The notes under the pieces were generated by a model, which saw only the letters and a list, made by a program, of their open reading frames with translations, was not told where the DNA came from and ran no database searches. The position numbers and the translations under genes are program-made. DNA of 64,000 bases from a bacterium (lineage in GTDB: Bacteria > Actinomycetota > Thermoleophilia > Solirubrobacterales > Solirubrobacteraceae). The stretch spans positions 62,001-126,000 of the forward strand of contig JAJPKQ010000017.1 of the NCBI GenBank assembly GCA_021323635.1. The letters are read 5' to 3'. Shown here piece by piece: positions 15,633-51,223 of the stretch. Within the stretch, counting starts at the first letter, position 1. Each line of letters opens with the position of its first letter.

Positions 15633-16652
15633 TCAGCGCGCCAGCAACTCGGCGAGATAGGCAAGGGCAAAGCCGGCAGCGGGGCCGATCAGCCAGCCCC
15701 GCAGGATCCCCGCCAGCTGCGCGCGGTCGACCGTCTGGCGCCCGCGCGCGGCGCCGGTGCCGGCCATCGCCGCCACAAGCGCCTGATTCATCGAGGTGAA
15801 CAGGCCCTGGCTGACAGCGAGGATGACGACCAGCGCCTGCACGCCCTGCGCGGCGCTCGCCATCGCCAGGTCCATCCGGACCACGTCGAACGCCACCCGC
15901 TCGAGGATCCGCCGGCCCCACGTGAGCGCCCCGAGGAAGAGGCCGGCGCCGCCGATCGCACCGGCCGCCTCGGGTGAGACGAGATGCGCAAGCAACAGCG
16001 CACCGGTCGCGTTCGCCACATCGTTTGAGCCCATCGCGAAGGAGGCGCAGACGCCGACTGCAACCAGCGCAACCGGCGCCGCCCGCAGAGCCGCGCCCGC
16101 AAGCGCGGGCCGCTCGGGCTGCCCCTCACCGGGGTGCTCGAGCTGACGGGCAGCCGGCGCCGCCTCCGCCCACGGCGCCAGGACGCGGTCGATCGCGCGC
16201 GTCAGGACGAAGCCCATCAGCGCGGCGGCAAGCGGCGCGCAGAGCCATGCGATCAGAAGCTCTACGAGCGTCATCCAGCGCACCGCAAGCCCCGCCGAGA
16301 CGGCCGCGCCCAGCAGGCAGAAGACAAGTATCTGGATCGTCGAGGTGGGAAGGCGCAGATAGTTGAACGCCATCGTCAGGGCGCAGCCACAGCTGACGAT
16401 GACGATCGCGGTCACGATGCTCACCTCCCGCGCTGCGATCAGGCGCAGGCCGACGGTCGCCTCGACCTTGCCGCTGGCGAAGGTTGCGCCGAGCAGCGAG
16501 AAGATCGCGACGATGGCGAGCGCCGGCCACAGCGAGATCGATCGCGAGGCATACGGCATGCCCATCGTCGCGCCGGTGTAGTGAGCGCCCAGATTCCAGG
16601 CAAAGAGAAGCGCCACGGCAAGCAGAATCGCCTCCTCCGGGCCGCCGCTCAC
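15633..16652 (-). CDS. PiT-family anion permease (sulfate or phosphate)
   Basis: A 339-residue membrane protein with about nine to ten hydrophobic helices. The C-terminal half carries the PiT signature GSNDVANATG; the N-terminal half-repeat, normally G-A-N-D-x-A-N-A-x-G, is degenerate here (NLGAHYTGATMGMPYASRSI). PiT proteins move phosphate; the CysP branch moves sulfate, and in Bacillus that gene stands with APS kinase. As cysC starts divergently 198 bases away, sulfate is the more likely substrate, but phosphate cannot be excluded. Convergent with the ligase operon; the two stops are 12 bases apart. Confidence 0.75.
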   Translation of the reverse strand: MSGGPEEAILLAVALLFAWNLGAHYTGATMGMPYASRSISLWPALAIVAIFSLLGATFASGKVEATVGLRLIAAREVSIVTAIVIVSCGCALTMAFNYLRLPTSTIQILVFCLLGAAVSAGLAVRWMTLVELLIAWLCAPLAAALMGFVLTRAIDRVLAPWAEAAPAARQLEHPGEGQPERPALAGAALRAAPVALVAVGVCASFAMGSNDVANATGALLLAHLVSPEAAGAIGGAGLFLGALTWGRRILERVAFDVVRMDLAMASAAQGVQALVVILAVSQGLFTSMNQALVAAMAGTGAARGRQTVDRAQLAGILRGWLIGPAAGFALAYLAELLAR

Positions 16653-16850: not shown

Positions 16851-17702
16851 ATGTCGGGTCGGCAGGCTGCCGGCGCCAATCCCCTCCCAGAGCTCCTCCC
16901 CCGCAACGTGAACATCGGCGAGACCCAAGAGCGCAATGACCCTGCCGAACGCAGCGCGCAGCGCTGCGCGCTGTCGAGCGAGCCGTTGGCGGCAGCGCAG
17001 CTGCAGCGCATCGCTGCAGCGGACAACCGCAATGTCCGCTGGCAGCATTCGGGCCTCTCGCGCTCGGAGCGCTGGCAGGCCCTGGAGTCCCAGGGCGCAA
17101 CCGTCTGGCTGACCGGCCTGCCCTCCTCGGGCAAGTCGACGCTCGGCGCCGCACTCGAGCGCCGGCTGGTCGAGGAAGGCCGCGGCGCCTACCTGCTCGA
17201 CGGCGACAACCTGCGCCACGGCATCTGTGCAGATCTCGGCTTCAGCCGCGAGGACCGCGAACGCAATGTGACGCGGGTGGGCGAGCTTGCCTGCCTCTTT
17301 GCGGACTCCGGCGCGCTCGCGCTGGTGGCGCTCGTCTCGCCCTATGCGAGCGCGCGTGCGGCCGTGCGCGCGCTGCACGAGGCGGCCGGGCTGACCTTCA
17401 TCGAAGTCTTCGTGGACACGCCCCTGCGCACCTGCGTGGAGCGCGACCCCAAGGGCCTCTACGCGCAGGCGCTCGCGGGCGAGATCAAGGAGTTCACGGG
17501 CATCGACGACCCTTATGAGCGCCCGCAGGCCCCCGACCTGGTCCTGCGCCCGCAGACCGCCCTCGAGGACGCGGTCGACCAGGTCCTGGCGCTTCTGCGT
17601 CGCGCGCAGATCGGCGCAGCAGGCCCGCGCGGCCGGCAGGCCATCGGCGCCGCTTACGCCTCGGGCGCGCCAGCGCAGCAGAGGGTAGCGACACTGCGCT
17701 GA
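16851..17702 (+). CDS. cysC: Adenylylsulfate (APS) kinase
   Basis: A 283-residue APS kinase. The core (from about residue 62) has the typical NVRWQHSGLSRSERWQALE, Walker A GLPSSGKST, LLDGDNLRHGICADLGFSRE for APS binding, RERNVTRVGELACLFADSGA, and VFVDTPLRTCVERDPKGLYA. It makes PAPS, the universal sulfuryl donor. About 60 residues precede the core without recognisable motifs; a GTG at 16908 or a later start would shorten them. No ATP sulfurylase or PAPS reductase is next to it; instead two arylsulfotransferase-domain proteins follow, hinting that the local role is sulfation rather than cysteine synthesis. Confidence 0.9.
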   Translation: MSGRQAAGANPLPELLPRNVNIGETQERNDPAERSAQRCALSSEPLAAAQLQRIAAADNRNVRWQHSGLSRSERWQALESQGATVWLTGLPSSGKSTLGAALERRLVEEGRGAYLLDGDNLRHGICADLGFSREDRERNVTRVGELACLFADSGALALVALVSPYASARAAVRALHEAAGLTFIEVFVDTPLRTCVERDPKGLYAQALAGEIKEFTGIDDPYERPQAPDLVLRPQTALEDAVDQVLALLRRAQIGAAGPRGRQAIGAAYASGAPAQQRVATLR

Positions 17703-17796: not shown

Positions 17797-19674
17797 GTGA
17801 GCGCCCGGCAGGCCTTGCCAGCCGCCGCGCTGCTGGCGCTGGCGATCGTGCTGATCGCGCTTGCAGCCTCCGGCAGCTTCTCCTCCGGCTCAGGCCGCCG
17901 CAGCGCAGCCCGCGCGCCCGCCTGCCTGCCCCAAGCTCCGGTCAAGAGCGCGCAGATCGCCGGTCTGGGGCTCTATGTCTCGCCCGCCCCAGGCTCGGTC
18001 AGCGCAAACCCCGACACGCAGATCAGCTTTCTGGGACTGCCCGCTGCAAGGCTTCGCGACATCACCGTCAGAGGGTCTCAGAGCGGCCTCCACGGAGGCA
18101 CATTGATGCCCTACTCTCAGGGCGACGGGGGCTCCTTCGTGCTGCGCCGAGCGCTTGAGCCCGGCGAGCGCGTTGAAGTCAGCGCGAGCGTCGAAGCCGC
18201 GCAGGGCAGCCGTGCGGTGCGCTTTGACTTCGGCGTCGATCACCCCTACTCGACGGCGGATGTCGGCGAATTCCCCAACCCGCCGGCTCCCCCTGCTGAC
18301 GTGCAGCGCTTCCGCACGCTGCCGGGCGTGGAAGCGCCCGTCATGAGCGTCAGCGTTCCCGACCACGCGCCGGCGGCGGGCGACATCTTCCTCACCAACG
18401 GGCCCGGGCCCGGCCGCTACGGACCGCTGATCTACGCCCCCGACGGCCGCCTGATCTGGTTTGAGCAGCTCCCTGCCGGCCAGACCGCAGAGAACCTCGC
18501 GGTGCAGAGCTACGAAGGTCGGCGCGACCTGACCTTCTGGAAGGGCAAGGTGCTCGATCTGGGCTTCGGCGAGGGCGAAGACGTGATCATGAACGACCAC
18601 TACCAGATCGTGAAGGTCGTGCGCGCGGGCAACGGCCTGCAGGCGGATCTGCACTACTTTGACCTTGCGGGAAGTGGCGTCGCTTATGTGAGCACCTTCA
18701 ACCCGATCCGCTGCAACCTCCAGGCGATCGGCGGCAGCGCGGACGGCGCGATCCTCGACAACGCAATCCAGGAGATCGACCTGCGCACCGGGCTGGTGCG
18801 CTACGAATGGCACGCGCTCGATCACATTCCCGTGCGCGACTCCCACACCGCGCCGCCGAGCAACGGCCAGCCGTGGGACTGGCTGCACGTCAACTCGCTC
18901 GATGTGCAGCCCTCAGGCAACCTCTTCATCTCAGCGCGCAACACCTGGGCCGGCTACGAGCTGCAGGCGGGCAGCGGCAGGATCCTCTGGGAGCTGGGAG
19001 GGGCGCAGAGCTCCTTCAGGCTGGGAGCGGGGGTGCAGACCGCCTGGCAGCATGACGGGCAGATCCTCCCTGGCGGCGAAGTCACCTTCTTCGACGACGG
19101 CGCCAACCCCCCGGTGCACTCGCAGTCGCGCGCCATTCGCATCGCCCTTGACTTTGCGACCATGGAAGCGCGCCTCTCGGCGGTCTACGACCATCCCAGC
19201 CCGCTGCTTGCGGTGAGCCAGGGCAACGCGCAGACGCTTGAAGACGGGAGCGTCGTGGTCGAGTACGGCTCAATTCCACAGATCAGCGAGTATGCGCCTG
19301 GCGGCACGCTGCTGTTCGATGCGCACCTGCCGCTCGACATGACCAGCTACCGCGGCTATCGCTTTCCCTGGAGCGCGCAGCCGGCCGGCCCGCCTGCGGT
19401 GAGCGCAAATGAAAACAGCACCGAGGAAGAGACGATCGTCCACATGAGCTGGAACGGGGCGACCGATGTCGCTGCCTGGGAGATCCTCGCCGGGCAGAGC
19501 AGGGACGCGCTCTCGCGCCAGGAGACGATCCCGGCGGGCGAGGCTTTTGAAGCGGCGACCTCCCTGCCGCGCAAGTTCGCCTACGTTGCCGTCAGCGCGC
19601 TCTCGCGCTCGGGCAGCGTGCTCGGCAGTTCTGAGACGATCCCTGTCGCCCCCTACAGCGCTCTCTATGGCTAG
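17797..19674 (+). CDS. Exported arylsulfotransferase (ASST) family protein
   Basis: A 625-residue protein with an N-terminal signal/anchor (LLALAIVLIALAASG), an N-terminal Ig-like segment, then an ASST beta-propeller (Arylsulfotran_2-like, about 170-530) and a C-terminal Fn3-like module (SWNGATDVAAWEILAG to the end). Residues that align with the E. coli AssT catalytic set as I recall it are present: His364 and Asn366 in WLHVNSLD, Arg381 in SARNTW, His419 in WQHDG. AssT-type enzymes transfer sulfuryl groups between phenols through a sulfo-His outside the cytoplasm. The GTG start has GGAGG eight bases upstream. Glu is often GAA, as in other exported genes. Its stop overlaps the stop of the convergent lipoprotein gene in a CTAG. 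Confidence 0.82.
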   Translation: MSARQALPAAALLALAIVLIALAASGSFSSGSGRRSAARAPACLPQAPVKSAQIAGLGLYVSPAPGSVSANPDTQISFLGLPAARLRDITVRGSQSGLHGGTLMPYSQGDGGSFVLRRALEPGERVEVSASVEAAQGSRAVRFDFGVDHPYSTADVGEFPNPPAPPADVQRFRTLPGVEAPVMSVSVPDHAPAAGDIFLTNGPGPGRYGPLIYAPDGRLIWFEQLPAGQTAENLAVQSYEGRRDLTFWKGKVLDLGFGEGEDVIMNDHYQIVKVVRAGNGLQADLHYFDLAGSGVAYVSTFNPIRCNLQAIGGSADGAILDNAIQEIDLRTGLVRYEWHALDHIPVRDSHTAPPSNGQPWDWLHVNSLDVQPSGNLFISARNTWAGYELQAGSGRILWELGGAQSSFRLGAGVQTAWQHDGQILPGGEVTFFDDGANPPVHSQSRAIRIALDFATMEARLSAVYDHPSPLLAVSQGNAQTLEDGSVVVEYGSIPQISEYAPGGTLLFDAHLPLDMTSYRGYRFPWSAQPAGPPAVSANENSTEEETIVHMSWNGATDVAAWEILAGQSRDALSRQETIPAGEAFEAATSLPRKFAYVAVSALSRSGSVLGSSETIPVAPYSALYG

Positions 19675-19929: not shown

Positions 19930-20370
19930 TCAGTACGCGGGGCTCGGCGCCTTCGCCGATTCGGAGCTTTCGACGCTTTCGCTGCTCACCTGCGCTTCGC
20001 TGTGGGTCTGCTGCGTGCGAGCTTCGCGCGGCGGCGCCTGGCGCTGCCCTGCTTCGCGCGAGGATGAGGCCGCGGGTGTGCTTGCCGCTTGCACTTGCGG
20101 GGTGCTCGTGGCGGGCGCCGCAGGGGGCGTCGAGGAGGGCGGCGCCGAGGCCCTTGCTGCGCCCGCAGGCGCGCCCGCACCGGCACGCTGCCGATGCGAG
20201 AGCGCGCGCGCTCTGCGCGGCGCGACGGTGGTGGCAGGATGGCGCGAGAGCGAGGTCGATGTGATGCGCAGCGAGGTGCTCGGGGAGTGCTCGGCGGAAG
20301 AGCCGCCGCAGGCTGCAAGCGCAGGCGCGCAGAGCGCTGCAGCTGCGAATGTCACCGATATGCGCCTCAT
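19930..20370 (-). CDS. 146-residue low-complexity lipoprotein ending in tyrosine
   Basis: MRRISVTFAAAALCAPALAAC is a lipoprotein signal with lipobox; the mature part starts CGGSSAEHSPSTS and is a disordered Ala/Pro/Ser/Thr/Arg/Gln-rich chain that ends AKAPSPAY. AGGAG four bases before the ATG fixes the start; a GTG seven codons earlier is less likely. It is probably co-transcribed with the smaller lipoprotein downstream, and divergent from the MFS-ASST gene with a 180-base shared promoter region. The only Tyr is the C-terminal residue. No family recognised. Confidence 0.65.
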   Translation of the reverse strand: MRRISVTFAAAALCAPALAACGGSSAEHSPSTSLRITSTSLSRHPATTVAPRRARALSHRQRAGAGAPAGAARASAPPSSTPPAAPATSTPQVQAASTPAASSSREAGQRQAPPREARTQQTHSEAQVSSESVESSESAKAPSPAY

Positions 20371-20520: not shown

Positions 20521-20550
20521 TATAGTCATCCGATCTCAAAAGGAGTCCCC
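20521..20550 (+). promoter_or_regulatory. -10 and ribosome binding site of the MFS-ASST gene
   Basis: TATAGT (20521-20526) is a good -10, and AAAAGGAG ends five bases before the ATG at 20551. Together they exclude the much longer upstream open frame and show that this gene, unlike many neighbours, has a conventional leader. Confidence 0.6.
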
Positions 20551-23500
20551 ATGCAAGAGAACGATCAGAGCCGCCCGATCGATCCCGCAGGCCCGCTCGC
20601 AGCCGCGAGCGCGGCGATCGAGGCTCCCGCGCCCGCGGCGGGAGAGGCGACCGCTGGGCGGCGCGGGCGCACACGCAGGCTGATCGGACGTCGCGAGCGC
20701 CCTGTCGTCGCGGATGTCGCCTCGCTCCCGCACGCCGGCTGGCTGCTTGCGGTCTGCTGCGTCGCCCAGTTCATGGTCATCCTCGACCTCTCGATCGTCA
20801 ACGTCGCACTGCCCTCGATCCAAGACGCTCTGGGCTTCTCCGCGCCGACCCTGCAGTGGGTGGTCGACGCCTACGCGATCACCTTCGCCTCCTTCCTGAT
20901 GCTCGGCGGGCGCGCCGCCGATCACTTCGGCCAACGCCGCACCTTTGTAATCGCGCTTGCGCTCTTTGCCGCGAGCTCGCTCGCGGGCGGCCTGGCGCCC
21001 GATCAGAGCACGCTGATCGTCGCGCGCGGCCTGCAGGGCTTTGCGGGCGCGCTGATGGCCGCGACCTCGCTTGCGATCATCACCTCCTCATTCCCCGAAG
21101 GCGCCGCACGCAACCGCGCAATCGGCCTGTGGGCCTCGATGAACGGCGCCGGCGGCGCCGCCGGCGTGGTGCTCGGCGGGGTGATCACCGAACAGCTCTC
21201 CTGGCGCTGGGTGCTCCTGATCAACCCGCCGATCGGCATCGTCACCGCCCTGCTGGCGTGGGGCGTCGTCCGCGAGCTGCGGCGCGCGCCCAGCGCGAGC
21301 TTTGATCTGCTTGGCGCGCTGACGCTGACGGCCGGCCAGGTGATCTTGGTCTACGGCGTCGTCGAAGCGGGCCTGAAGGGCTGGAGCTCGGCGGCGGCGC
21401 TGCTGCCGATCATCCTCGGCATCGCGCTGCTGGCGCTCTTTGGCGTGATCGAGGAGCGGGTGGCGTCAAACCCGATCATCCCGCTCGCACGGCTCTCCAA
21501 GCAGCTGCGCATCGCCAACACGATCGTGCTGCTCTTCAGCGCCTCGCTCTTCCCGATGTGGTTTGTCTCCTCCCTCTATCTGCAGCAGGTGCTCGGGCTC
21601 TCGCCCGGCCAGACCGGGCTCACCTTCCTGCCGATGACGGTCGTGATCCTGATCGGCGCGCGCAACGCGGGCAAGCTGGTGGGGCGCTTCGGCGTGCGCG
21701 CGGTGCTGGCCGCGGGGCTCACGCTGATGACGATCGGCTTCCTGCTGCTGGCGCGGATCGGCCCCTCGGGCAGCGCGATCCCGCAGATCCTGATCCCGGG
21801 CATGCTCGTGACCGCCGGCATCGCGCTCTCGATCGTCTCCTCGACGATCGCCGCGACCCAGGGCGCCGCCCCCGGCCAGGCCGGGCTTGCCTCCGGCCTT
21901 GTGAACACCTCGCGCCAGGTCGGCGGCGGTCTGGGGCTGGCGGTGCTGATCACGCTGGCGACCCAGCAGACGACGCACCTGATCGCCCACGGCCACGGCG
22001 TGCCCGTGGCGCTGACCTCGGGCTTCAGGCTCGCCTTCCTGATCGGCGCAGGCCTCTGCGCGGCGGCGGCGCTCGGGACGCTGACGCTGGTGCGCTCGAG
22101 CGCACCGGCAGGCGGCAGAGCGCTGCGGCGCTTTGTCCTCTCCTTCGCGATCGTGCTCGCTGCCTACGCCGGCCTCACGTTTGCCTTCGCGCGCTCGCAC
22201 GGCGCGCCACTGGGGGCCTACGTGCTGCGCAACGCCTACTCCTTCGCCTCGGCGCCGAGCCTGCACCCGCCGAAGATAGCGCTGACCGAAGGGGGCGAAG
22301 GCGGCGCGCAGCTGGCTCCCGGCTACATCTTCACGACCAGCTTCTACAACCTCAGCGAGCCGCCGATCGAGGGCCAGAGCGGCCCGCTGATCCTCGACGA
22401 CAGGCTGCAGCCGGTCTGGTTCCTGCCGGTGCCCGAGCGCTACGTCGCGGCGAACCTCAGCCTCCAGCACTATCACGGCGAAGCGGTGCTCGCCTGGTGG
22501 CAGGGGCTCGTCACCAACACCGGCGCTACCGAAAGGGGCGAATACGTGGTCGCCAATCGCCATTACCAGGTGATCGCGCGCCTGCACGCCGCCGACGGCT
22601 GGGTGCTGACGCTGCACTCCTTCACGATCAGCGGCGAAGACGCCTGGGTGACGGCGAACAAGAACGTTGCTTATGACCTTTCCCCCTTCGGCGGCGCCTA
22701 CAACGGCACGCTGATCGATGTCGCAGTTCAGGAGTACAACCTGCGCACCGGCCGGCTCCTCTACAACTGGGACGCGCTCAAGCACGTCCCGCTGCAGGAC
22801 TCCGAGGCGGCGCTGCCCACCAACGGCTTTCCCTGGGACGCCTACCACATCAACTCGATCGACGTGCTTGGCAATGGGAGGTTCCTGGTCTCGCTGCGCA
22901 ACACCTGGGCGGCCTATCTCGTGCAGATCAAAACCGGCAAGATCCTCTGGGAGCTGGGCGGTCGTCACTCGAGCTTCAGCTTCGGGCCGCAGGCGGACTT
23001 CCAGTGGCAGCACGATGTCGCCCTCGCTGGGTCAAGCACGGTGACGATGTTTGACGACCACTGCTGCCAGCTGACCAGCGGCGGCAAGTACGTCGAACCG
23101 TCGGCTCCTTCGCGTGGGCTGGAGCTGCATCTTGACTTCGCCACGCATACGGCGACGCTGGTTGCGCAGTTCAACCACCATCCCGCGATCGACGCCGCCT
23201 ACATGGGCGACGCCGAGGCGCTCGCCGGCGGCGACACCTTCGTCGGCTGGGGTTCCGAACCGTACTTCACCGAGTACGGGCCCAAGGGCGAAGTGCTGCT
23301 CGAAGGCGAATTCCCTGGCCCTGATCTGAGCTATCGAACGATGCTCGAGCCTTGGGTGGGCGAGCCGCTCAGCAAACCGGCGGGGGCGGCGCGCAACAGC
23401 GCGGGTGCGACGACCGTCTTCGCCAGCTGGAACGGCGCCACACAGGTTGTCGCCTGGCGTGTGCTCGGCGCGCGCGCCGGCGCGCCGCTTGCGCCGATCG

Positions 23501-23628
23501 CAACAGCGAGCAGGAGCGGCTTCGAGACCGCGATCGCAGTGCCCGGCGGCGAGCAGAGCTTCCAGGTGCAGGCGCTCAGCGCGGGCGGCAAGGTGCTGGG
23601 GAGCTCCAACGTCTTCAGTGCGCGGTGA
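20551..23628 (+). CDS. MFS (DHA2-type) exporter fused to an arylsulfotransferase domain
   Basis: A 1025-residue fusion. About 50 cytosolic residues precede a 14-TM DHA2/EmrB-type MFS exporter (about 60-520) with VAQFMVILDLSIVNVALPSI, RGLQGFAGALMAATSLAII and motif-C-like glycines (GAGGAAGVVLGGVI). After TM14 comes an extra helix, RRFVLSFAIVLAAYAGLTFA (about 528-548), then an ASST propeller (about 575-935) and a C-terminal Fn3-like module. With an even number of MFS helices the extra helix should put the ASST domain outside the cell. His766/Asn768 (YHINSID), Arg783 (SLRNTW) and His821 (WQHDV) keep exactly the spacing of the separate ASST (17 and 38 residues). I know of no described protein of this architecture. 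Likely role: export plus sulfation of an aromatic product. Confidence 0.88.
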   Translation: MQENDQSRPIDPAGPLAAASAAIEAPAPAAGEATAGRRGRTRRLIGRRERPVVADVASLPHAGWLLAVCCVAQFMVILDLSIVNVALPSIQDALGFSAPTLQWVVDAYAITFASFLMLGGRAADHFGQRRTFVIALALFAASSLAGGLAPDQSTLIVARGLQGFAGALMAATSLAIITSSFPEGAARNRAIGLWASMNGAGGAAGVVLGGVITEQLSWRWVLLINPPIGIVTALLAWGVVRELRRAPSASFDLLGALTLTAGQVILVYGVVEAGLKGWSSAAALLPIILGIALLALFGVIEERVASNPIIPLARLSKQLRIANTIVLLFSASLFPMWFVSSLYLQQVLGLSPGQTGLTFLPMTVVILIGARNAGKLVGRFGVRAVLAAGLTLMTIGFLLLARIGPSGSAIPQILIPGMLVTAGIALSIVSSTIAATQGAAPGQAGLASGLVNTSRQVGGGLGLAVLITLATQQTTHLIAHGHGVPVALTSGFRLAFLIGAGLCAAAALGTLTLVRSSAPAGGRALRRFVLSFAIVLAAYAGLTFAFARSHGAPLGAYVLRNAYSFASAPSLHPPKIALTEGGEGGAQLAPGYIFTTSFYNLSEPPIEGQSGPLILDDRLQPVWFLPVPERYVAANLSLQHYHGEAVLAWWQGLVTNTGATERGEYVVANRHYQVIARLHAADGWVLTLHSFTISGEDAWVTANKNVAYDLSPFGGAYNGTLIDVAVQEYNLRTGRLLYNWDALKHVPLQDSEAALPTNGFPWDAYHINSIDVLGNGRFLVSLRNTWAAYLVQIKTGKILWELGGRHSSFSFGPQADFQWQHDVALAGSSTVTMFDDHCCQLTSGGKYVEPSAPSRGLELHLDFATHTATLVAQFNHHPAIDAAYMGDAEALAGGDTFVGWGSEPYFTEYGPKGEVLLEGEFPGPDLSYRTMLEPWVGEPLSKPAGAARNSAGATTVFASWNGATQVVAWRVLGARAGAPLAPIATASRSGFETAIAVPGGEQSFQVQALSAGGKVLGSSNVFSAR

Positions 23629-41367: not shown

Positions 41368-42828
41368 TCAGTCGACGGTGCCTGACGCCTGCAGCGCCGG
41401 CGCGGATGGTTCAGCGCTCAAGGTGCTTCGCAGAGTCATGCGCGGCAGCACGATCAGGCTCGCCACCGCGCTGCACCCGGCGAGCGCCGCGATCACGATC
41501 CAGCTCGTCCGGAAGGTACCGAGGCCTGCGTGCACGCCGCTTGACCCACCGAGGATCGCCACCACCACGGCCACGCCCACAGCGGTGCCGATCTGGCGCA
41601 GCATGTTGATGACGCCTGCGCCCGTGGCGTAGGACTGCGGCGGCAGCGGCCCGGTTGCGGCGGCGAGGAAGGTCGGCAGCGAGAGGCCGAAGCCCGCGCC
41701 GACCAGCAGCATCCCGCCCAACATCGCCGCTGGATAGTCGGGGTGTGGCCCGATCGCAAGCACCCACCAGAGCACGCCCAGACCAAACACACCGGCGCCG
41801 AGTGCGCTTGCCACGCCGGCGCCAAGGCGAGCGATCGCCCGGCCCACGAGCAACCCCGCGACGATCGGCACCATCAGCGCGCCAGGCGCGATCGCAAGGC
41901 CGGTTGTCAGGGCCGAGTAGTGCCATGCGCCCTCCACCCACAGCACCATCGAGAGCAGCATGCCGCCGAAGGACATCATCAGGATCGTCGCGGCCGCCGC
42001 CACGCCCGAGAAGGCGCGTGAGCGGAACAGCCCCGGCTCCACCAGCGGATTGCGATGGCGCAGGCAGTGCAGCACGAAGCTGGCGAGCGCGAGCGCGGCG
42101 CCGGCAAGCACAGCGACGGTGGCGGTGGACCCCCAGCCCCAGCTGCCGCCCTGGACGATGCCGAGCGTCAGCGCCGCCGCCCCGCCTGTCACAAGCACCG
42201 CGCCGAGGGCATCGGGGCGCGGCCCGGCATCGCGCTTTGAGCCGGGCAGCAAGCGGATGCCGAGCAGCAGCGTGATCAGGCCGATCGGAACATTGATGAA
42301 GAAGATCGCGCGCCAGCTCACGGTGACGAGCAGCCCGCCGATCACCGGCCCGACTGCGGCGCCGACCCCCACCGCAGCTGTCCAGGTGCGCACGGCAGCC
42401 TCCCTGCGATCGGGCGGCGCAAACGCCAGGATCAGCCCGAGCGAGCCCGAGGAGAGGAGCGCCGCGCCGGCGCCCTGGATTACACGGTAGGCGACAAGCG
42501 CAGGCACGCTAGAGGCCGCGCCGCAAGCCGCCGAGGCGGAGACGAAGAGCGCTGCGCCAAGCAGGAAGACCCGCTTGTGCCCTTCATTGTCGGCGAGCCT
42601 GCCGCCGAGCACAAGCAGAGCGGCGTAGACGATGGTGTAGGCGTTGATCACCCAGGAGAGACCCCCCAGCGCACGCGCGCCGAAGTCGCGCGCCATGTAG
42701 GGCAGCGCCACATTGACGACAAAAAGGTCGACGCTGACCAGGAACATGCCCGCGCACAGCAGCGCCAGCACGATGCCCAGGCGCACCTCTGCGTGTCCGA
42801 CTTCAAGCTCTTGAGTGGAGGTCCCCAT
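41368..42828 (-). CDS. MFS exporter (DHA2/EmrB type), end of the PKS operon
   Basis: A 486-residue 14-TM drug:H+ antiporter-type transporter: GMFLVSVDLFVVNVALPYMA, GGRLADNEGHKRVFLLGAAL (motif A), YRVIQGAGAALLSSGSLGLI, and the motif-C stretch GVGAAVGPVIGGLL. The ATG used is 13 bases after the polyketide synthase stop; a longer frame start would overlap the synthase by 32 bases. The tight spacing makes it the second gene of the PKS operon, so export of the polyketide product is the likely job. The ASST fusion partner of the other DHA2 protein is absent here. Confidence 0.88.
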   Translation of the reverse strand: MGTSTQELEVGHAEVRLGIVLALLCAGMFLVSVDLFVVNVALPYMARDFGARALGGLSWVINAYTIVYAALLVLGGRLADNEGHKRVFLLGAALFVSASAACGAASSVPALVAYRVIQGAGAALLSSGSLGLILAFAPPDRREAAVRTWTAAVGVGAAVGPVIGGLLVTVSWRAIFFINVPIGLITLLLGIRLLPGSKRDAGPRPDALGAVLVTGGAAALTLGIVQGGSWGWGSTATVAVLAGAALALASFVLHCLRHRNPLVEPGLFRSRAFSGVAAAATILMMSFGGMLLSMVLWVEGAWHYSALTTGLAIAPGALMVPIVAGLLVGRAIARLGAGVASALGAGVFGLGVLWWVLAIGPHPDYPAAMLGGMLLVGAGFGLSLPTFLAAATGPLPPQSYATGAGVINMLRQIGTAVGVAVVVAILGGSSGVHAGLGTFRTSWIVIAALAGCSAVASLIVLPRMTLRSTLSAEPSAPALQASGTVD

Positions 42829-42841
42829 CGCTGCCGAGCCG

Positions 42842-45800
42842 TTAGAGACCTGACTGTAGCGAGCGCGCGGCAACGGGCGCGCTCGTGCGCGCCGGCGGGC
42901 TGCCGTTGGCGGCTGCGAGTGCCTCGTCGGCGACCGTTCTGCGGATCCAGCTCTCGATCACAGCTGCGCTCTCCGGCGCGTGCTCCTCGATGATCGTGAA
43001 GTGATCGGCGCTCAGCGGCGCATCGCTCGGCGCTGAGCTGAAGGGCGCGCGCAGCAGCTGCGGGCCAGGCAGCGCCGCAAGCGCCTGCGTGGCGCGCAGG
43101 AAGAGCCCCGGCGCGCTGACGATGCCGGGCCGCCATTCGGAGGCAAGGCGCAGATAGGTGCCGAGCGCGATCAGCTCCGCGTCATCGATCTCCTGCGCCT
43201 CGCGGGAGCGATCGATGATCTCGATCAGCATTGCTGCGATCAGCTCCGCGCCATCCTCGCGCACCGCATAGGAGTCGATCATGATCACACCGGCAGGCCC
43301 GCCGCCCTGCGCCTCACAGCGCTCCGCAACCGCATGCGCGAGCGCGCCGCCGCTCGAATAGCCGAGCAGCACGTATGGCTCGCCGCCCGCTGCGGTGCGC
43401 ACCGCTGCGGCCAGGGCATCGACGGCGATCGCCCAGCTCGCGGGGGCGCGCTCCTCGATCAGCCGCCCGGGCAGCGTCAGGACGCTCAGCGGCCGCTGCC
43501 CCTCAAGGCTCCTGGCAAGGCGAGCGAACTGCTGCGCGCCGGAGCCTGGCATGAAGGAGGGAATGCAGATCAGCTGTGGCGCCGCGCCCGCTGAGGTCAG
43601 CTGCAGCGCCCGCTGCGACTCGGCCATTGTCTCGAAGACCGGCCGCAGGCGCGAGACCTCGAGCAGGGTCGAGACCAGCTCCGGCACCCGGCCGGCCTCG
43701 CGAGCGCCATCCAGCAGCGCGCGCAGCGCCGTCACCCGCTTGCTCGCGGCGCTGCGCCGCGGGTGGCCTTCCTCGATCTCAGCGCGCAGGTGGCCCGCAA
43801 GCGCGCGCAGCGGCCGGCCGAAGAAAAGGCGCATCGGCAGCCGCGCCCCGGTGCGCGCCTCCAGTCGATTACGCAGCTCCAGCGCATCGAGCGACTCGCC
43901 GCCCAGCTCGACAAGGTTGCGCTCGGCGCTGATCGCGCCGAAATCGAGGTCCAGAACCCTTGCAACCTCCTCGCTCACCAGCTGCAGGGCGATCTGCTCG
44001 CGGCCCTCCGGCGGCGCGGCAAGCATCCGCCTGCGCAGGGTGCCGGCGCGATCCACGGCTCTGCGCGGCGAAGTGATCAACCCGCGCAGCGGCGGTGCGA
44101 TCGCGTCAACCTGAGCGTTGGCGCGCAGCGCGCTCATGTCAAGGCGGATCGGCATGAGGAAGGGATCTCCCGCCGCCAGTGCCGCGTCAAGCAGGGCGAG
44201 GCCGCGCTCGGGCTCTAGCGCCAGCATCCCCAGACGCACGCGGATCTGCGCCTCCAGCTGTTCAAGGGCGTCCATGCGCGCCGCTTCCTCGGCGCCTTGA
44301 TCGCGCTGCCACAGCCCTGAGTCAACCCTCCAGAGCCCCCAGGCAAGCGACTGAGCGGGCAGCCCGCGAGCGCGCCGTGAGCAGGCAAGCGCATCGAGAA
44401 CGCAGTTGGCGGCAGCGTAGTTAGCCTGCCCGGCGCCGCCCAGGATCCCCACTGCCGAGGAGATCAGCACGAACGCCGACAGATCGCATCCGGCGGTCAG
44501 CCGATCGAGCGCGAGCGCCCCGTCCACCTTCGCGGCAAGCACCCGCTCGAGGCGATCGCGATCCAGCGCCTGGATCAGCGCGTCATCCATCACCCCGGCA
44601 GCGTGGATGACAGCCCTCAGCGGCCTGCTCGCCGGGATCTCCGCAAGGAGGCGCTCAAGCGCCGCCGCATCGCTCACATCACAGGCGACCACATGCGCCT
44701 TGCAGCCGCAGGCGGCAAGCTCGGCCTGAAGCTCCGGGGCCTCCTCTGCCGCCGGCCCGCGGCGACTGGCGAGCAGGAGGTGGCGAACGCCATGCGCACG
44801 CGCCAGGTGGCGGGCGAAGAGCATTCCAAGCTGCCCGGTGCCGCCCGTGATCAGCACGGTGCCGCCGCCGATGTCGGGCGTGGCATCGCCGTCCGGATCG
44901 ATGCGTGGCGCGAGCCGGGGGATGAGCAGCTCGCCGGCGCGAATCGCAAGCTGGGGCTCGTTTATGGCGATCGCCTGCAGCAGCGCGCGCCTGCTGCGCT
45001 CGCTCTCATCGACGTCCACAAGCGCGAAGCGCCCGGGCTGCTCGGATTGGGCGCTGCGGATAACCCCCCAGACGGCGACGCCAGCGAGGCTTGGCGCCTC
45101 CTGCTCGCGCGCTGCCACCGCGCCTCTTGTGAGCAGGAGCAGGCGCAGGCCCTGCAGGCGCTCGTCGGCAAGCCACGACTGCACAAGGGCGAGGGCGCGG
45201 TGGGCGGCCTTGTGTATGCCCGCAGCGGAGCGATCATCGCCCCCGACCTCCACGACCAGCGTCCGCGGCGCCCTGCCGTCGGCAAGCGCCGCCGCGAGAG
45301 CATCCAGGTCGCGATAGACAGATGCGCCAGGGAGGGCGCCCCGCCCCTCGCCCAGCACCCCCACCTCGCCGATCGCCGCTGGGCGCATGGCGGGCTCAGC
45401 CGCCACCCAGCGCAGGCCCAAGAGCAGCTCGCGCTCGGCGGCTCTCGCTGCATCGCGCAGCGCGCCCGCCTTCGGAGGGGCTGTCTCGATGCGCCGCACG
45501 GAGAGCACCGGCGTGTCGTCCTCGCCGCTCAGCGCCAGCGAGAGCGCCTCTCCCTCGCACGCCAGCGTGGCGCGCAGCCGCCCGCTGAGCACCGCATGTA
45601 GCCGCGCCCCGTGGAAGGCAAGCGGAAGGCGCAGCTTCCCGCCCGCGGGCGTTGCAGACTGCATAGAGGCGAGCGCAACGATCGCCTCCAGTAGCGCAGC
45701 ATCAAAGAGCGTGCCAAGCGCTATCTCGCCCTCGCCGGATTCAAGCTCCGCATACACGCTTGCCCCAAGCCGCAAGGCCGACTGCACGCGCTCAAGCGCC

Positions 45801-48800
45801 TCACCGAACGAGGCGCCAAGCTCCTCCAGGCGATCGTGCAGGTAGCCAAGCTCGATCCTCTCCGCTCCCATCGGCGGCCAGGGCGTGATGCCCTCCTGAC
45901 CCGGCGCCAAGCTCTGCCCCGGGAGGATGCTGCCGCCGGCAAGCCGCTTCCACTCCCCTCCCACCTCTCCTGGTCCAGACTCGGGGCGGGCGGCAATCAG
46001 CAGTGAGCGGCGCCCGTGCTTGTCGCGCTCACCGACGCTCACCTGCAGCTCGATCGCACCCTGCTCGGGGATCACCAACGGCGTCTCCAGCGCGAGCTGC
46101 TCGACCTCGGCACAACCCACCTCGCTGGCGGCTTGAAGCGCAATCTCCAGCAATGCGCCCGCCGGCAGCACCGGCACGTCGTGGACGGTGTGATCGGACA
46201 GCCATGGCTGACTCTGCAGCGAGAGGCGACCGGAGAGCAGCCACGCGTCGCGGTCGGCCAGGTTGACGCGTGCGCGAAGCAGCGGATGGGCAGCCCGCAG
46301 AGGGCCGGCCGTCTCCTGCTCGCTCTCCTGGACCGATGCCTCAAGCCAGTGGCGCTCGCGCTCGAAGGGGTAGGTCGGCAGGCCGACCAGCCGCGCCCCG
46401 CGCCCTGCAAACAGTGGCCTCCAATCGACTTCGACGCCCTCCGCAAAGGCCCGCGCAAGAGCGCTCGTGAAGGCTGCCTCGTCGCTCTGGCCGCGGCGCA
46501 GCGACCCGATCACCGCGACCTCCTCGCCAACGGCGCGCTCCTCGATCGTCTCCTGCATCGGCAGCGCGAGCACCGGCTGCGGGCTCATCTCGATCAGGAC
46601 CGAGCAGTGCGCATCGAGCAGCGCACGCGTTGCCTGCGCAAAGCGCACGGGCTCCCGCAGCGAGCGGTACCAATACTCTCCGTCAAGGCGCGCGGTGTCG
46701 ATGATCTGCGCATCGACGCAGGAGATGAAGGGGATCGTGCCCGGGCGCGGACGCAGCGAGGCCAGCGAGCCGATTAGCTGCTCGCGAACGCGCTCCACCG
46801 CAGGCGAGTGCGAGGCGTAGTCGACCGCGATGCGCCGTGCGGCGATCCCTTCGGCGGCACAGTGCGCAAGCAGCTGATCGAGCGCCCCATCCGCGCCGGA
46901 GACGACCGTCGCGCTCGCGCTGTTGATCGCAGCGATCGTGATCGAACCCTGCCAGCGGGCGATCAGCCGCTCGACCGGCTCGCTTCCTGCCGCAAGCGAG
47001 GCCATCCCGCCGCTGCCCGCAAGCGCGCGCAGCGCCTGGCTGCGCACTGCCACCAGGCATGCGGCGTCCTCAAGCGAGAGGCCACCCGCGATCTGGGCTG
47101 CGGCGATCTCGCCCTGCGAGTGACCGACCACAGCGGCAGGCTGGACGCCGTAGGAGCGCCAGAGCTCTGCCAGCGAGACCATCACCGCCCACAGCGCCGG
47201 CTGGACAACATCGACGCGCTCCAGCGGCGGCGCGCCCTCCATGCCGCGCAGGACATCCTCGAGCGACCACTCGACATGCGGCGAGAGCGCCTCCGCGCAG
47301 GCATGCACGTGCTGGGCAAAGATCGCCGAGGTCTCTAGCAGCTGGCGTGCCATTCCCTCCCACTGGCCGCCCTGTCCGCCGAAGACAAAAGCCACCTTCG
47401 CCGACTCGCGAGCGTGGCCGCGGAGAAGCTCGTCGGCGCTGCTCCCGGCGATCAGCGCGTCTAGACCCCGCAGCATCGCCGAGCGCTTGCCGCCGACGAT
47501 CGCAGCGCGGTGGGACATGCGCGCGCGGCCACGTGCGAGCGTGTAGGCCACGTCAAGGCCCTTCAGCCGCGTGTGGCGCTGCAGGTGCGCGCGCAGTCGC
47601 CGCGCCTGCTCTCTGAGCGCCGTCTCGCTCTTTGCGCTGAGCAGCCAGGGCGTTGTCGCCGGCGGCGCGCTGCGCGCACGCTTCTCAGCGCGCGGAGGCT
47701 CCTCCAGGATCACGTGCGCGTTGGTGCCGCTGATGCCAAAGGAGGAGACGCCCGCTCGGCGTACGCGCCGGGTGGCCGGCCACCTGCGCGCGTTGGTGAG
47801 CAGGGCCAGAGCGCCAGCCTGCCAGTCGACATGCGAGGAGGGCTCCTCGGCATGGAGCGTCGCGGGCAGCACCCCGGTCTGCATCGCCATCACCATCTTG
47901 ATCACGCCGGCGACGCCCGCTGCGGCCTGGGTGTGCCCGATGTTGCTCTTCACCGAGCCAACCCAGAGCGGGCGCCTGCGTCCGCGGCCGTAGGCTGAGA
48001 TCAGCGCACGGGCCTCGATCGGGTCGCCGAGCGGCGTGCCTGTGCCGTGCGCCTCGACAGCGTCGACGTCCTGCGGTCGCAGCCCGGCAGCGCTCAGCGC
48101 CGCTGTGATCACCTCAACCTGAGCGCTGCCGCTCGGCGCGCTGAAGCCGTTGCTCTTGCCATCCTGGTTGATCGCGCTGCCGCGCACCAGCGCCAGCACG
48201 CGGTGATCGTTGCGTTCGGCATCGCTCAGGCGCTCGAGCACCAGCAGCCCGACGCCCTCGGCGAAGCCAGCGCCGTCGGCGCTCGCCGCAAAGGGCTTGC
48301 AGCGCCCGTCGGCGGCAAGCGCGCCTTGACGCGAGAAGCCGGTGAAGATCGCCGGCGTTGAGAGGACGGTCACGCCGCCCGCGAGCGCCAGCGAGCAGTC
48401 GCCCGCCTGTAGCGCCCGGCAGGCCTCGTGCAGGGCAACGAGCGATGAGGAGCAGGCTGTGTCGATCGTGACCGCAGCGCCGCGCAGCCCAAGCGTGTAG
48501 GCGACGCGGCCCGAGACGGCGCTGGCGGCGGCACCGGTCAACAGCTGCGCCTCGAGCTCGCGCGCGCGCCGCGCGCCGAGCCTCATCACGTGATCGACCG
48601 AGCTGACGCCGACATACACTGCGCTTGCGCTGCCCGCCAGTGAGGTCGGGTCGATGCCGGCGTCCTCAAGCGCCTCCCAGGCGACTTCAAGCAGCTGCCT
48701 CTGCTGGGGGTCGATGGTGTCCGCCTGGCGCCCGCCGATACCAAAGAAGGCCCCGTCAAACCCGGCCGCATCCGCAAGGAAGCCGCCTTCGCGCGCGCGG

Positions 48801-51064
48801 CTTGCTCCGGCCTGCTCGGCTGCACCGGCAAAGAGGCGCTCAAGGTCCCAGCCCCGATCGCGCGGGAAGCCTGAGATCCCATCGCCGCCGCGCGCGACCA
48901 GGTCCCAGAGGCTCTCGGGAGAGTCCACGCCACCCGGGTAGCGACACGCCATGCCGACGATCGCCAGCGGCTCCGATGCCGATACACCGGCGGCGGAGCT
49001 CACCTGATGTTGATCAGAGGCGGCGCCCTCGAGGCACTCGCGCAGGTGCGCGATGAGGGCCTCAGGCGTTGGATGGTCAAAGCAGAGCGTCTCGGGCAGC
49101 TTGAGCCCGGTCCGCGCACCAAGCCGCACACTGAGCTCCACCGCGGCAGGAGACTCCAGGCCAAGCTCCCTGAAGGTGGTCGCGGTGGCGATCTCCTCCG
49201 CTGAGGGGTGGCCGAGCAGCGCCGCGAGCTCAGCCAGCACGACGCCGCGCAGGTGCTCGCTCGGCGCGCGGGCATGCACAGCCGCCGCCTGCGCGGGGAG
49301 GCGCGAGCGGGCGAGGATCGGCAGCGTCCCCGCCAAGAGCGCTGCGCGGGTCGCGGCGCGGCGGATCTTGCCGCTGCTGGTCTTGAGGATCGCCCCCCGC
49401 TCGATCAGCACAACCTCATCGAGCGCAAGGCCGACCGCCTGCGCAACGCCCGCGCGGACGCGCGCGAAGATCCCATCGCGTGCGCCCTCCTCGATCTCGC
49501 GCGCCAGCTCGGCGACGAGGATCACCTCCTGGCGACCGTCGCGGTCGACTTCGAAAGCTGCCAGGCAGCCTGCACGCAGATGCGAGTCGGCACGCGTCGC
49601 CGCCAGCTCGATGTCCTGCGGGAAGTAGTTGTCACCGCGCACGATGATCATGTCCTTGAGTCGGCCGAGCACATAGAGCTCGCCGTCCCGGAGCACCCCG
49701 AGGTCGCCGGTGCGCAAGAAGCGCATCCCTTCAGGATCATCAGCAAGGGTGGCCTCGAACGTCGCCCTGCTCTTCTCGGGGTTGCCCCAGTAGCCCGCTC
49801 CCACCGAGGGGCCGCTGAACCAGATCTCGCCCTGCTCGCCCTCTGGAAGTGCGCGCCTGGTCTGCGGATCGACGATCAGCAGCGTTGCGTCGGCATCAAC
49901 GGCGCCAACCGACACAGCCTTCTGGTCAGCGCTCTGATCGCGATCGCCTGCCCAGTCGCCGCCCTCGCCGCTGGCGTCCACCGGCGTGGCACGTTCGGAG
50001 AGCCTGCTCGTGCAGACCAGCAGTGTCGCCTCCGCCAGCCCATATGCCGGCATAAACGCTGAGCGCCTGAAGCCTGCGCGAGCAAAGTGGGCCGTGAAAC
50101 GTTCCATCGTCTCCAGGCGAATTGGTTCTGCGCCATTGATCGCGCAGCTCCACGCGGACAGGTCGAGTTCGGCGGCCTCGTCACTGGAGACCTTGCGCAC
50201 GCAGAGGTCATAGGCAAAGTTCGGACCGCCCGAATGCGTGCCGCGATAGTGACTGAGCGCTTCCAGCCACAGCAGCGGCCGCGCCAAAAAGGACAGCGGC
50301 GAAAGCACCGTCGATTCAATGCCGTATACGATGGTCGTGAGGATTGCGCCAGCAAGCCCCATGTCGTGGTAAGGGGGAAGCCAGACCACGCTGCGATCCT
50401 TGCTTCCGATCGAAAAGCGCTCCCTGATCGATGCCACGTTCGCAAGCAGCTGAGCGTGTGTCAGCATCACCCCAGCTGGGTCGCTGGTCGAGCCCGAGGT
50501 ATATTGCAGGAGCGCGAGATCCGCGGGCGCCGGCTCGTGCCGGTTGCGGGTTTCCCCAGCCCGCTTGAGGTCGTCGAGAAGCACCAACCCAGAATCGTTG
50601 TCTGAGCGCACAAGGAGCTCTTGCAGCGGCTCGCAGACCGTTGCCAGCGGAGTCGTGGTCAGGATCGTGCTCGAGCCGCTGTCGGCTATCACTCGGGCAA
50701 GTCGCTCATCGAGGCCGGCGCTGGTGGGCGGGTAGGCCGGCACGGCGATCACGCCCGCCTGGAAGCAGCCGAACAGACCCGCTATGTAGTCAAGTCCCGG
50801 CGGACAGAGCAGCAGCGCCCGCGCGCCGATGCCAGCCCGCTCGGCCAGGACGTCGGCGATCGATTGAGCCCGTTCGTGAAGCTGCGCCGCGGTTAGCGTG
50901 ACTACGGCTGAGTCGGCCAGCGAGCTGCCGCCCGGCTCGATGAAGCGCACAGCAAGCGAGCCTGGCCGCTCCTTGGCATTCCGAGCCAGCGTAGCGGATA
51001 GCGTTGCACCGCTCGGCGGCGTGGTTTGCGCAGCTTCCCTGCTCCCGTAACGTGAACGACTCAT
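42842..51064 (-). CDS. FAAL-ACP-KS-AT-DH-KR-ACP-TE type I polyketide synthase
   Basis: A 2740-residue megasynthase. FAAL (about 20-585; LLQYTSGSTSDPAGVMLTHA, no C-terminal ligase lid chemistry expected); ACP1 (Ser638 in LGLESPAA); KS (about 698-1120; Cys871 in DTACSSS, both His in EAHGTGTP and NIGHTQ); AT (about 1223-1530; GHSQGE Ser1316, with RVDVVQP and YASH, which point to methylmalonyl-CoA); DH (about 1590-1860; HTVHDVPVLP and FDAALLEA, both off-consensus); KR (about 2070-2260; TGGTGQLG, Tyr2216 in GQANYAAAN, MDD suggests a B-type); ACP2 (Ser2391); TE (Ser2570 in GYSSG). No ER. It should activate a fatty acid, extend it once with a methyl branch, reduce and release it. A start 21 codons upstream is possible, but a TATATT lies inside that extension. 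Confidence 0.93.
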   Translation of the reverse strand: MSRSRYGSREAAQTTPPSGATLSATLARNAKERPGSLAVRFIEPGGSSLADSAVVTLTAAQLHERAQSIADVLAERAGIGARALLLCPPGLDYIAGLFGCFQAGVIAVPAYPPTSAGLDERLARVIADSGSSTILTTTPLATVCEPLQELLVRSDNDSGLVLLDDLKRAGETRNRHEPAPADLALLQYTSGSTSDPAGVMLTHAQLLANVASIRERFSIGSKDRSVVWLPPYHDMGLAGAILTTIVYGIESTVLSPLSFLARPLLWLEALSHYRGTHSGGPNFAYDLCVRKVSSDEAAELDLSAWSCAINGAEPIRLETMERFTAHFARAGFRRSAFMPAYGLAEATLLVCTSRLSERATPVDASGEGGDWAGDRDQSADQKAVSVGAVDADATLLIVDPQTRRALPEGEQGEIWFSGPSVGAGYWGNPEKSRATFEATLADDPEGMRFLRTGDLGVLRDGELYVLGRLKDMIIVRGDNYFPQDIELAATRADSHLRAGCLAAFEVDRDGRQEVILVAELAREIEEGARDGIFARVRAGVAQAVGLALDEVVLIERGAILKTSSGKIRRAATRAALLAGTLPILARSRLPAQAAAVHARAPSEHLRGVVLAELAALLGHPSAEEIATATTFRELGLESPAAVELSVRLGARTGLKLPETLCFDHPTPEALIAHLRECLEGAASDQHQVSSAAGVSASEPLAIVGMACRYPGGVDSPESLWDLVARGGDGISGFPRDRGWDLERLFAGAAEQAGASRAREGGFLADAAGFDGAFFGIGGRQADTIDPQQRQLLEVAWEALEDAGIDPTSLAGSASAVYVGVSSVDHVMRLGARRARELEAQLLTGAAASAVSGRVAYTLGLRGAAVTIDTACSSSLVALHEACRALQAGDCSLALAGGVTVLSTPAIFTGFSRQGALAADGRCKPFAASADGAGFAEGVGLLVLERLSDAERNDHRVLALVRGSAINQDGKSNGFSAPSGSAQVEVITAALSAAGLRPQDVDAVEAHGTGTPLGDPIEARALISAYGRGRRRPLWVGSVKSNIGHTQAAAGVAGVIKMVMAMQTGVLPATLHAEEPSSHVDWQAGALALLTNARRWPATRRVRRAGVSSFGISGTNAHVILEEPPRAEKRARSAPPATTPWLLSAKSETALREQARRLRAHLQRHTRLKGLDVAYTLARGRARMSHRAAIVGGKRSAMLRGLDALIAGSSADELLRGHARESAKVAFVFGGQGGQWEGMARQLLETSAIFAQHVHACAEALSPHVEWSLEDVLRGMEGAPPLERVDVVQPALWAVMVSLAELWRSYGVQPAAVVGHSQGEIAAAQIAGGLSLEDAACLVAVRSQALRALAGSGGMASLAAGSEPVERLIARWQGSITIAAINSASATVVSGADGALDQLLAHCAAEGIAARRIAVDYASHSPAVERVREQLIGSLASLRPRPGTIPFISCVDAQIIDTARLDGEYWYRSLREPVRFAQATRALLDAHCSVLIEMSPQPVLALPMQETIEERAVGEEVAVIGSLRRGQSDEAAFTSALARAFAEGVEVDWRPLFAGRGARLVGLPTYPFERERHWLEASVQESEQETAGPLRAAHPLLRARVNLADRDAWLLSGRLSLQSQPWLSDHTVHDVPVLPAGALLEIALQAASEVGCAEVEQLALETPLVIPEQGAIELQVSVGERDKHGRRSLLIAARPESGPGEVGGEWKRLAGGSILPGQSLAPGQEGITPWPPMGAERIELGYLHDRLEELGASFGEALERVQSALRLGASVYAELESGEGEIALGTLFDAALLEAIVALASMQSATPAGGKLRLPLAFHGARLHAVLSGRLRATLACEGEALSLALSGEDDTPVLSVRRIETAPPKAGALRDAARAAERELLLGLRWVAAEPAMRPAAIGEVGVLGEGRGALPGASVYRDLDALAAALADGRAPRTLVVEVGGDDRSAAGIHKAAHRALALVQSWLADERLQGLRLLLLTRGAVAAREQEAPSLAGVAVWGVIRSAQSEQPGRFALVDVDESERSRRALLQAIAINEPQLAIRAGELLIPRLAPRIDPDGDATPDIGGGTVLITGGTGQLGMLFARHLARAHGVRHLLLASRRGPAAEEAPELQAELAACGCKAHVVACDVSDAAALERLLAEIPASRPLRAVIHAAGVMDDALIQALDRDRLERVLAAKVDGALALDRLTAGCDLSAFVLISSAVGILGGAGQANYAAANCVLDALACSRRARGLPAQSLAWGLWRVDSGLWQRDQGAEEAARMDALEQLEAQIRVRLGMLALEPERGLALLDAALAAGDPFLMPIRLDMSALRANAQVDAIAPPLRGLITSPRRAVDRAGTLRRRMLAAPPEGREQIALQLVSEEVARVLDLDFGAISAERNLVELGGESLDALELRNRLEARTGARLPMRLFFGRPLRALAGHLRAEIEEGHPRRSAASKRVTALRALLDGAREAGRVPELVSTLLEVSRLRPVFETMAESQRALQLTSAGAAPQLICIPSFMPGSGAQQFARLARSLEGQRPLSVLTLPGRLIEERAPASWAIAVDALAAAVRTAAGGEPYVLLGYSSGGALAHAVAERCEAQGGGPAGVIMIDSYAVREDGAELIAAMLIEIIDRSREAQEIDDAELIALGTYLRLASEWRPGIVSAPGLFLRATQALAALPGPQLLRAPFSSAPSDAPLSADHFTIIEEHAPESAAVIESWIRRTVADEALAAANGSPPARTSAPVAARSLQSGL

Positions 51065-51087
51065 GTGCGCCTGCCAGTACAGCGCTG

Positions 51088-51093
51088 AATATA
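51088..51093 (-). promoter_or_regulatory. Possible -10 of the PKS operon
   Basis: TATATT on the minus strand, 23 bases before the ATG used for the synthase. It is one of the few AT-rich hexamers in the area and would give a leader of about 16 bases. No clear -35 is visible. Confidence 0.35.
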
Positions 51094-51223
51094 CTGCTTG
51101 GCGCCTCGGCCGATCCTCCCGTCGCATCGTCCCAGATGCGGCCCGCGGTGCAAGCTGAGATCTGGTTGCCGGCTTGCGCCGATGGTGAATGTGTCTTTGC
51201 TCGGGCTTGGGGGCTGCCGATTC

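Follow-up and report, generated by a model that had tools for sequence, protein, structure and literature searches.

Bacterial arylsulfate sulfotransferases (ASSTs) move sulfate from an aryl sulfate to an acceptor via a sulfo-histidine and do so without 3′-phosphoadenosine 5′-phosphosulfate (PAPS); their natural donors, acceptors and physiological roles were called poorly understood in a 2026 review (PMC13426309). In caprazamycin biosynthesis, the type III polyketide synthase (PKS) Cpz6 and Cpz8 act with the ASST Cpz4 (PMC12142624; Tang 2013 cited in PMC6560455). In this work, we analyzed a gene that joins an exporter of the major facilitator superfamily (MFS) to an ASST in one frame. It lies in a stretch of 64,000 nucleotides, here called the window, from a Solirubrobacteraceae genome (GCA_021323635.1, contig JAJPKQ010000017.1, positions 62,001 to 126,000 of the forward strand).

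With Cpz4/LpmB, the ASST of caprazamycin and liposidomycin biosynthesis (9kf4, 9kf6), the fusion shares the PF14269 family, the fold of the whole ectodomain and the active-site residues, and both come with a type III PKS and a PAPS-dependent sulfotransferase in the same genome. However, the chain solved for Cpz4 contains no transporter domain, whereas the ASST of the fusion is predicted to be held outside by an additional transmembrane (TM) helix, TM15, of a 14-TM exporter; moreover, the PKS is not always present in fusion genomes. The propeller of E. coli CFT073 AssT (3ELQ) contains equivalents of five catalytic residues of the fusion (H252, H356, N358, R374 and H436), although the sequences are only very weakly similar (profile E 0.55). 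Unlike the fusion, proteobacterial AssT is a soluble periplasmic dimer, and its donors are thought to be host-derived (PMC13426309). EfpA, QacA and EmrB have the 14-TM MFS fold in common with the fusion but end after TM14, without TM15 or an enzyme domain. In LplT-Aas fusions, an MFS transporter is likewise fused with an enzyme that processes what it carries; there, however, transport is inward and the enzyme is in the cytosol, whereas the MFS-ASST fusion would carry its enzyme outside and presumably exports. As far as we found, the fusion is a so far apparently undescribed architecture assembled from known parts. In agreement with the original prediction, which had been made from the DNA sequence alone and knew of no such protein, our literature search found no paper on an ASST-MFS fusion, most subscription journals being outside its reach.

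The fusion protein and its predicted topology

The 1025-residue chain is read from a single frame on the + strand (ATG 20551 to stop 23626-23628; Table 1), with a good candidate ribosome-binding site ahead of the ATG. A longer, mechanically listed open reading frame (ORF) starting at 20089 was discarded, its upstream extension being without support. Pfam places MFS_1 at residues 70-462 and Arylsulfotran_2 (PF14269) at residues 639-920 of the same chain, as expected from the original proposal that a DHA2-type 14-TM exporter continues into a full ASST propeller. A sequencing error that hides a stop and a start between the two halves, or an assembly chimaera, is ruled out by more than 30 independent full-length homologues. 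The MFS-ASST architecture is real and conserved in many genomes, and not a singleton.

The evidence for the fusion architecture and its topology is strong. VIA-align superposed residues 58-518 on EfpA 8ufd_A (Z 41.4, 30% identity), and the leading MFS matches, EfpA, QacA and EmrB, all are DHA2 members. Together with the MFS_1 domain and the 14 TM helices, this points to a DHA2-type, predicted proton-coupled exporter. For the topology, Kyte-Doolittle hydropathy was averaged over a full-length alignment of 33 rows, i.e. the window protein and 32 homologues of 54-68% identity. Exactly 15 TM peaks were seen, the last at residues 528-546, where TM15 reaches a mean hydropathy of 2.36 over the 33 sequences. 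Lys/Arg averages over the same rows were 1.8-3.6 in predicted inside loops and 0-1.5 in outside loops, with 3.2 in the loop preceding TM15 vs 0.8 after it. In the AlphaFold2 model (mean predicted local distance difference test score (pLDDT) 77, predicted template modelling score (pTM) 0.71), 14 TM helices in residues 59-513 are followed by a helix at 522-547 and an all-beta domain after residue 577. By the positive-inside rule, the fusion is hence predicted with 15 TMs, N-terminus in and C-terminus out, and the ASST propeller therefore would be outside, not cytosolic. This is in agreement with the extracytoplasmic location known for AssT, and both the 15th helix (placed at about 528-548) and the outer ASST domain of the original prediction were thus borne out by the models. 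TM15 is part of neither template, EfpA (58-518) or Cpz4 (561-1025). Three same-genus exporters that lack the fusion (L119, L120, L121; 57-59% identity) end after TM14 in Pro/Ala-rich tails and have no TM15, which argues that this helix goes with the ectodomain.

The closest solved relative of the ectodomain is 9kf4/9kf6 (phmmer E 3e-77), which also occupied Foldseek ranks 1 and 2 (34-35% identity; library name Streptomyces Cpz4). Cpz4 9kf6 aligned over 445 residues (VIA-align Z 41.5, root mean square deviation 2.6). This link to the caprazamycin sulfotransferase was missed by the original prediction. A profile of 9 diverse ASST domains matched AssT 3ELQ in three collinear pieces; the match is weak overall, but five catalytic residues coincide exactly with the published set, in which AssT H436 is transiently sulfated (PMC13426309). 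All five (H689, H766, N768, R783 and H821) are invariant in 33 fusions and in the 9 diverse ASST sequences, and the set, called intact beforehand as His/Asn/Arg/His, reads His/His/Asn/Arg/His. With propeller fold, Pfam domain and catalytic set of the PF14269 Cpz4-type ASSTs, the ectodomain is predicted to be a PAPS-independent arylsulfate sulfotransferase of the ping-pong type. As a separate observation, a vicinal cysteine pair, C838-C839 (window 23062-23067), is invariant in all 33 fusions; these are the sole cysteines of the window protein's ectodomain, and neither Cpz4 nor the upstream ASST has this pair.

Gene neighbourhoods, distribution and descent

In gene maps of 37 fusion loci, 27 had solo ASST genes nearby, as a rule one immediately upstream, and most Solirubrobacterales fusion loci have a solo ASST at the position equivalent to that in the window. 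A PAPS-dependent sulfotransferase of family PF17784 (Sulfotransfer_4) lies within 6.5 kb of the fusion at 14/37 loci; the chance of finding one that near is about 0.9% per locus, a figure that ignores common ancestry. At nine loci of non-Solirubrobacterales type it is directly upstream on the same strand, and at L056, L059, L062, L063 and L067 its frame overlaps that of the fusion, which suggests that the two form one operon there. CysC, the kinase of adenosine 5′-phosphosulfate (APS), is found at 5/37 loci; in the window, it is encoded two genes upstream of the fusion. Type III PKS genes (Chal_sti_synt_C, FAE1_CUT1_RppA) are found at 4/37. One locus, L040, encodes in a row ASST, fusion, CysC, sulfotransferase and a sulfotransferase-PKS fusion protein; in the latter (L040:8895-10583, 562 aa) Sulfotransfer_4 and type III PKS share one frame, with a second, divergent sulfotransferase adjoining. 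The unfused exporters L119-L121 are also flanked by ASST genes, at L119 together with a sulfotransferase and a type III PKS.

The own genome encodes all three enzyme kinds of the caprazamycin type, namely type III PKS, PAPS sulfotransferase and ASST, the latter with six PF14269 genes. Its sole type III PKS (L083:8633-10528, contig 26) follows a sulfotransferase domain within a single frame of 631 residues, again next to a second, divergent sulfotransferase. On contig 3, a sulfur assimilation operon encodes CysD, CysN, a sulfite reductase-like protein and CysH. The CC..CxxC motif of this CysH is that of APS reductases, with which PAPS is unnecessary for sulfur assimilation; hence the single CysC is free for other use and probably serves sulfation. 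In a sample of 201 genomes of the order, a sulfotransferase was present in 20 of the 22 fusion genomes vs 26 of the 179 others (Fisher p 5e-13, inflated by relatedness). Type III PKS occurred in 15/22 fusion genomes against 2.5 expected (p 4e-12, likewise inflated). A similar set is known from the adp cassette of Streptomyces davaonensis (PMC12135136), where type III PKS, the PAPS-dependent sulfotransferase AdpST and APS kinase are encoded together as here. The cassette has no ASST or exporter fusion, however, and the sulfated polyketide is its product, whereas we propose it as a carrier.

The same 201 genomes contained full-length fusions in 19 genomes besides our own (56-69% identity) and contig-edge fragments in 2 further ones; a scan of named genome contigs gave 42 loci, 34 with long fusion frames. 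Homologues came from metagenome-assembled genomes (MAGs), mostly of Solirubrobacterales/Solirubrobacteraceae, but also of Acidimicrobiales/Acidimicrobiaceae, Nocardiopsaceae and other Actinomycetes. Going by isolate names, the Solirubrobacterales MAGs stem from peat, permafrost and other soils. A single-sequence search with a strict cutoff returned only the own genome, 1/396 of the phylum, from a sample that held few fusion-bearing groups; in this sparse sample the architecture thus is rare at phylum scale.

All 36 fused MFS domains form one clade (support 100/99), whose closest outside branch is formed by the unfused exporters of that genus; several independent fusions are hence unnecessary. 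The fused ASST domains fall within one 39-row clade (100/100) that includes a few solo ASSTs. Since L050, L130 and L131 nest inside it as solo proteins, the ASST domain probably was split off or freed again there; L068 is cut by the contig end. A single ancient fusion that was afterwards split or lost and that also moved between orders would account for these patterns. The solo ASST upstream of the window fusion belongs to a different supported clade, and we therefore reject the fused domain as a copy of this gene.

Further observations concern genes around these islands. A PHO4/PiT-family permease adjoins CysC in the window and could take up sulfate, as some PiT relatives do, or phosphate; its membership in the island is uncertain. 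Sulfotransferase-PKS pairs without exporter fusion occur in other genera (L123-L125, L128). Sulfatase genes (PF00884) lie close to the ASST island at L039, L047, L052 and L073 and possibly recycle sulfate esters. Farther along the window, on the - strand, a separate small biosynthetic locus comprises a 2761-aa AMP-binding and type I PKS module protein (41368-51127; KS-AT-DH-KR-ACP-TE) with an adjoining MFS gene, and a 1212-aa PAS/GAF/GGDEF/EAL cyclic-di-GMP protein is encoded at 51224-54862.

Table 1. Coordinates of the fusion gene, its predicted parts and its upstream neighbours in the window
Feature	Position	Strand	Evidence
MFS-ASST fusion gene, 1025 aa	20551..23628	+	ORF; Pfam; 33-member full-length alignment; AlphaFold2 model
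Putative ribosome-binding site AAAAGGAG, a few bases before ATG 20551	20538..20545	+	read in sequence
Predicted 14-TM DHA2-type exporter domain, residues 59-513	20725..22089	+	MFS_1 E 8e-47; EfpA 8ufd_A Z 41.4; 14 hydropathy peaks
Predicted TM15, residues 522-547, crossing to the outside	22114..22191	+	hydropathy; charge; AlphaFold2 helix; absent from unfused same-genus exporters
Predicted ASST beta-propeller ectodomain, residues 561-1025	22231..23625	+	Arylsulfotran_2 E 4.7e-39; Cpz4 9kf6 alignment
H689, equivalent of AssT H252	22615..22617	+	alignments; AssT profile match
H766 and N768, equivalents of AssT H356 and N358	22846..22854	+	alignments; AssT profile match
R783, equivalent of AssT R374	22897..22899	+	alignments; AssT profile match
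H821, equivalent of AssT H436 (transiently sulfated His)	23011..23013	+	alignments; AssT role PMC13426309
Separate ASST gene, hydrophobic N-terminus (signal or anchor)	17797..19674	+	PF14269 E 6.7e-41
CysC, APS kinase (makes PAPS)	16851..17702	+	PF01583 E 9.8e-63; the genome's only one
PHO4/PiT-family permease	15633..16652	-	PF01384 E 8.5e-39

Proposed donor export and competing readings

An ASST outside a soil bacterium needs an aryl-sulfate donor outside. The original prediction had the exporter deliver a phenolic compound that is sulfated on the outside; the outer ASST stands, but as a functional account this is incomplete, because the ping-pong reaction draws on an external aryl sulfate. 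Also, the neighbourhoods with sulfotransferase, APS kinase and PKS point to the donor rather than the acceptor as cargo. As these neighbours make up the rest of a Cpz-like two-step sulfation, in which Cpz8 presumably catalyzes the PAPS-dependent step, we infer that the exporter carries the donor. Inside the cell, CysC would make PAPS and the Sulfotransfer_4 enzyme would sulfate a carrier, a small phenolic compound or pyrone that in Solirubrobacterales probably comes from a type III PKS. The 14-TM domain would export this aryl sulfate. The propeller, fixed at the outer face by TM15, would then load the sulfate onto H821 and pass it to an acceptor outside, ping-pong as in AssT and Cpz4. Other secreted ASSTs encoded nearby could use the same donor for other acceptors, and the acceptor need not be phenolic. 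We regard such a vectorial two-step sulfation, with a donor carried out by the exporter and spent outside by the ASST domain, as modestly probable.

Several points weigh against donor export. DHA2 exporters often are multidrug pumps with a broad range of substrates. Every fusion-bearing record is a MAG, and in the own genome the PKS and the two sulfotransferases linked to it lie on a different contig from the fusion. The co-occurrence counts are uncorrected for shared ancestry, and the association with the PKS is weak when only the own genus is considered (12, 3, 1, 3; p 0.07). Furthermore, a PKS match was absent in 8/9 Acidimicrobiales-type fusion genomes tested, and the ninth had only a remote one (28% identity). 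We hence reject type III PKS as a universal partner; its product cannot be the universal carrier, and we do not file the whole family as a caprazamycin-type pathway. The Acidimicrobiales-type genomes keep the sulfotransferase, directly upstream of the fusion. The PAPS-dependent sulfotransferase thus is the constant partner, and lineages probably use different carrier scaffolds.

Donor export could go one step further, toward a trans-envelope sulfuryl relay in one chain. The exporter would hand the aryl sulfate directly to the propeller, coupling transport and transfer, and PAPS-derived sulfate would reach envelope glycans, exported metabolites or soil phenolics via a diffusible phenolic carrier. 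We put this forward tentatively, as a possibility that is rather less than probable.

Alternatively, the exporter might carry a phenolic acceptor that the ASST sulfates on emergence with aryl sulfates already outside, i.e. export with modification or detoxification. ASSTs do sulfate many phenols (PMC13426309), and the fusion sets the enzyme at the exporter exit. Yet this reading does not account for an outside donor in soil bacteria. The linked APS kinase and PAPS-dependent sulfotransferase supply a donor within the cell, and a cargo already sulfated inside would need no outer enzyme for that molecule. We therefore consider acceptor export unlikely. The fusion might also be an anchoring or co-expression device only, with exporter and ASST working independently on no shared substrate. 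Unfused same-genus forms and solo ASSTs inside the fused clade indeed indicate that fusion is not essential. However, the unfused exporters are still beside ASST genes, so the association is kept without fusion, and the fusion persists across several orders with catalytic set and transporter residues invariant, which makes a mere anchor improbable. Least convincing, and very doubtful to us, is a reverse direction, in which finished sulfated products or xenobiotic aryl sulfates are removed and the ASST strips their sulfate onto a sink to free the phenol for the release of a signal, a siderophore or a quinone. ASST reactions can in principle run in both directions and sulfatase genes adjoin four fusion loci, but sulfatases alone would suffice, and the six PF14269 paralogues in the genome are easier to reconcile with a single donor that serves many acceptors.

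A Cpz4-type ASST that is fused to an exporter and accompanied by donor-making enzymes makes the donor question of ASSTs testable, namely which molecule is exported. If donor export holds, the fusion would be a rare instance of an efflux pump that has an enzyme attached where its cargo emerges, and may represent a general route for PAPS-bound sulfate across the bacterial membrane. Were the relay true as well, extracellular ASSTs in a large actinobacterial group would have a natural, self-made donor.
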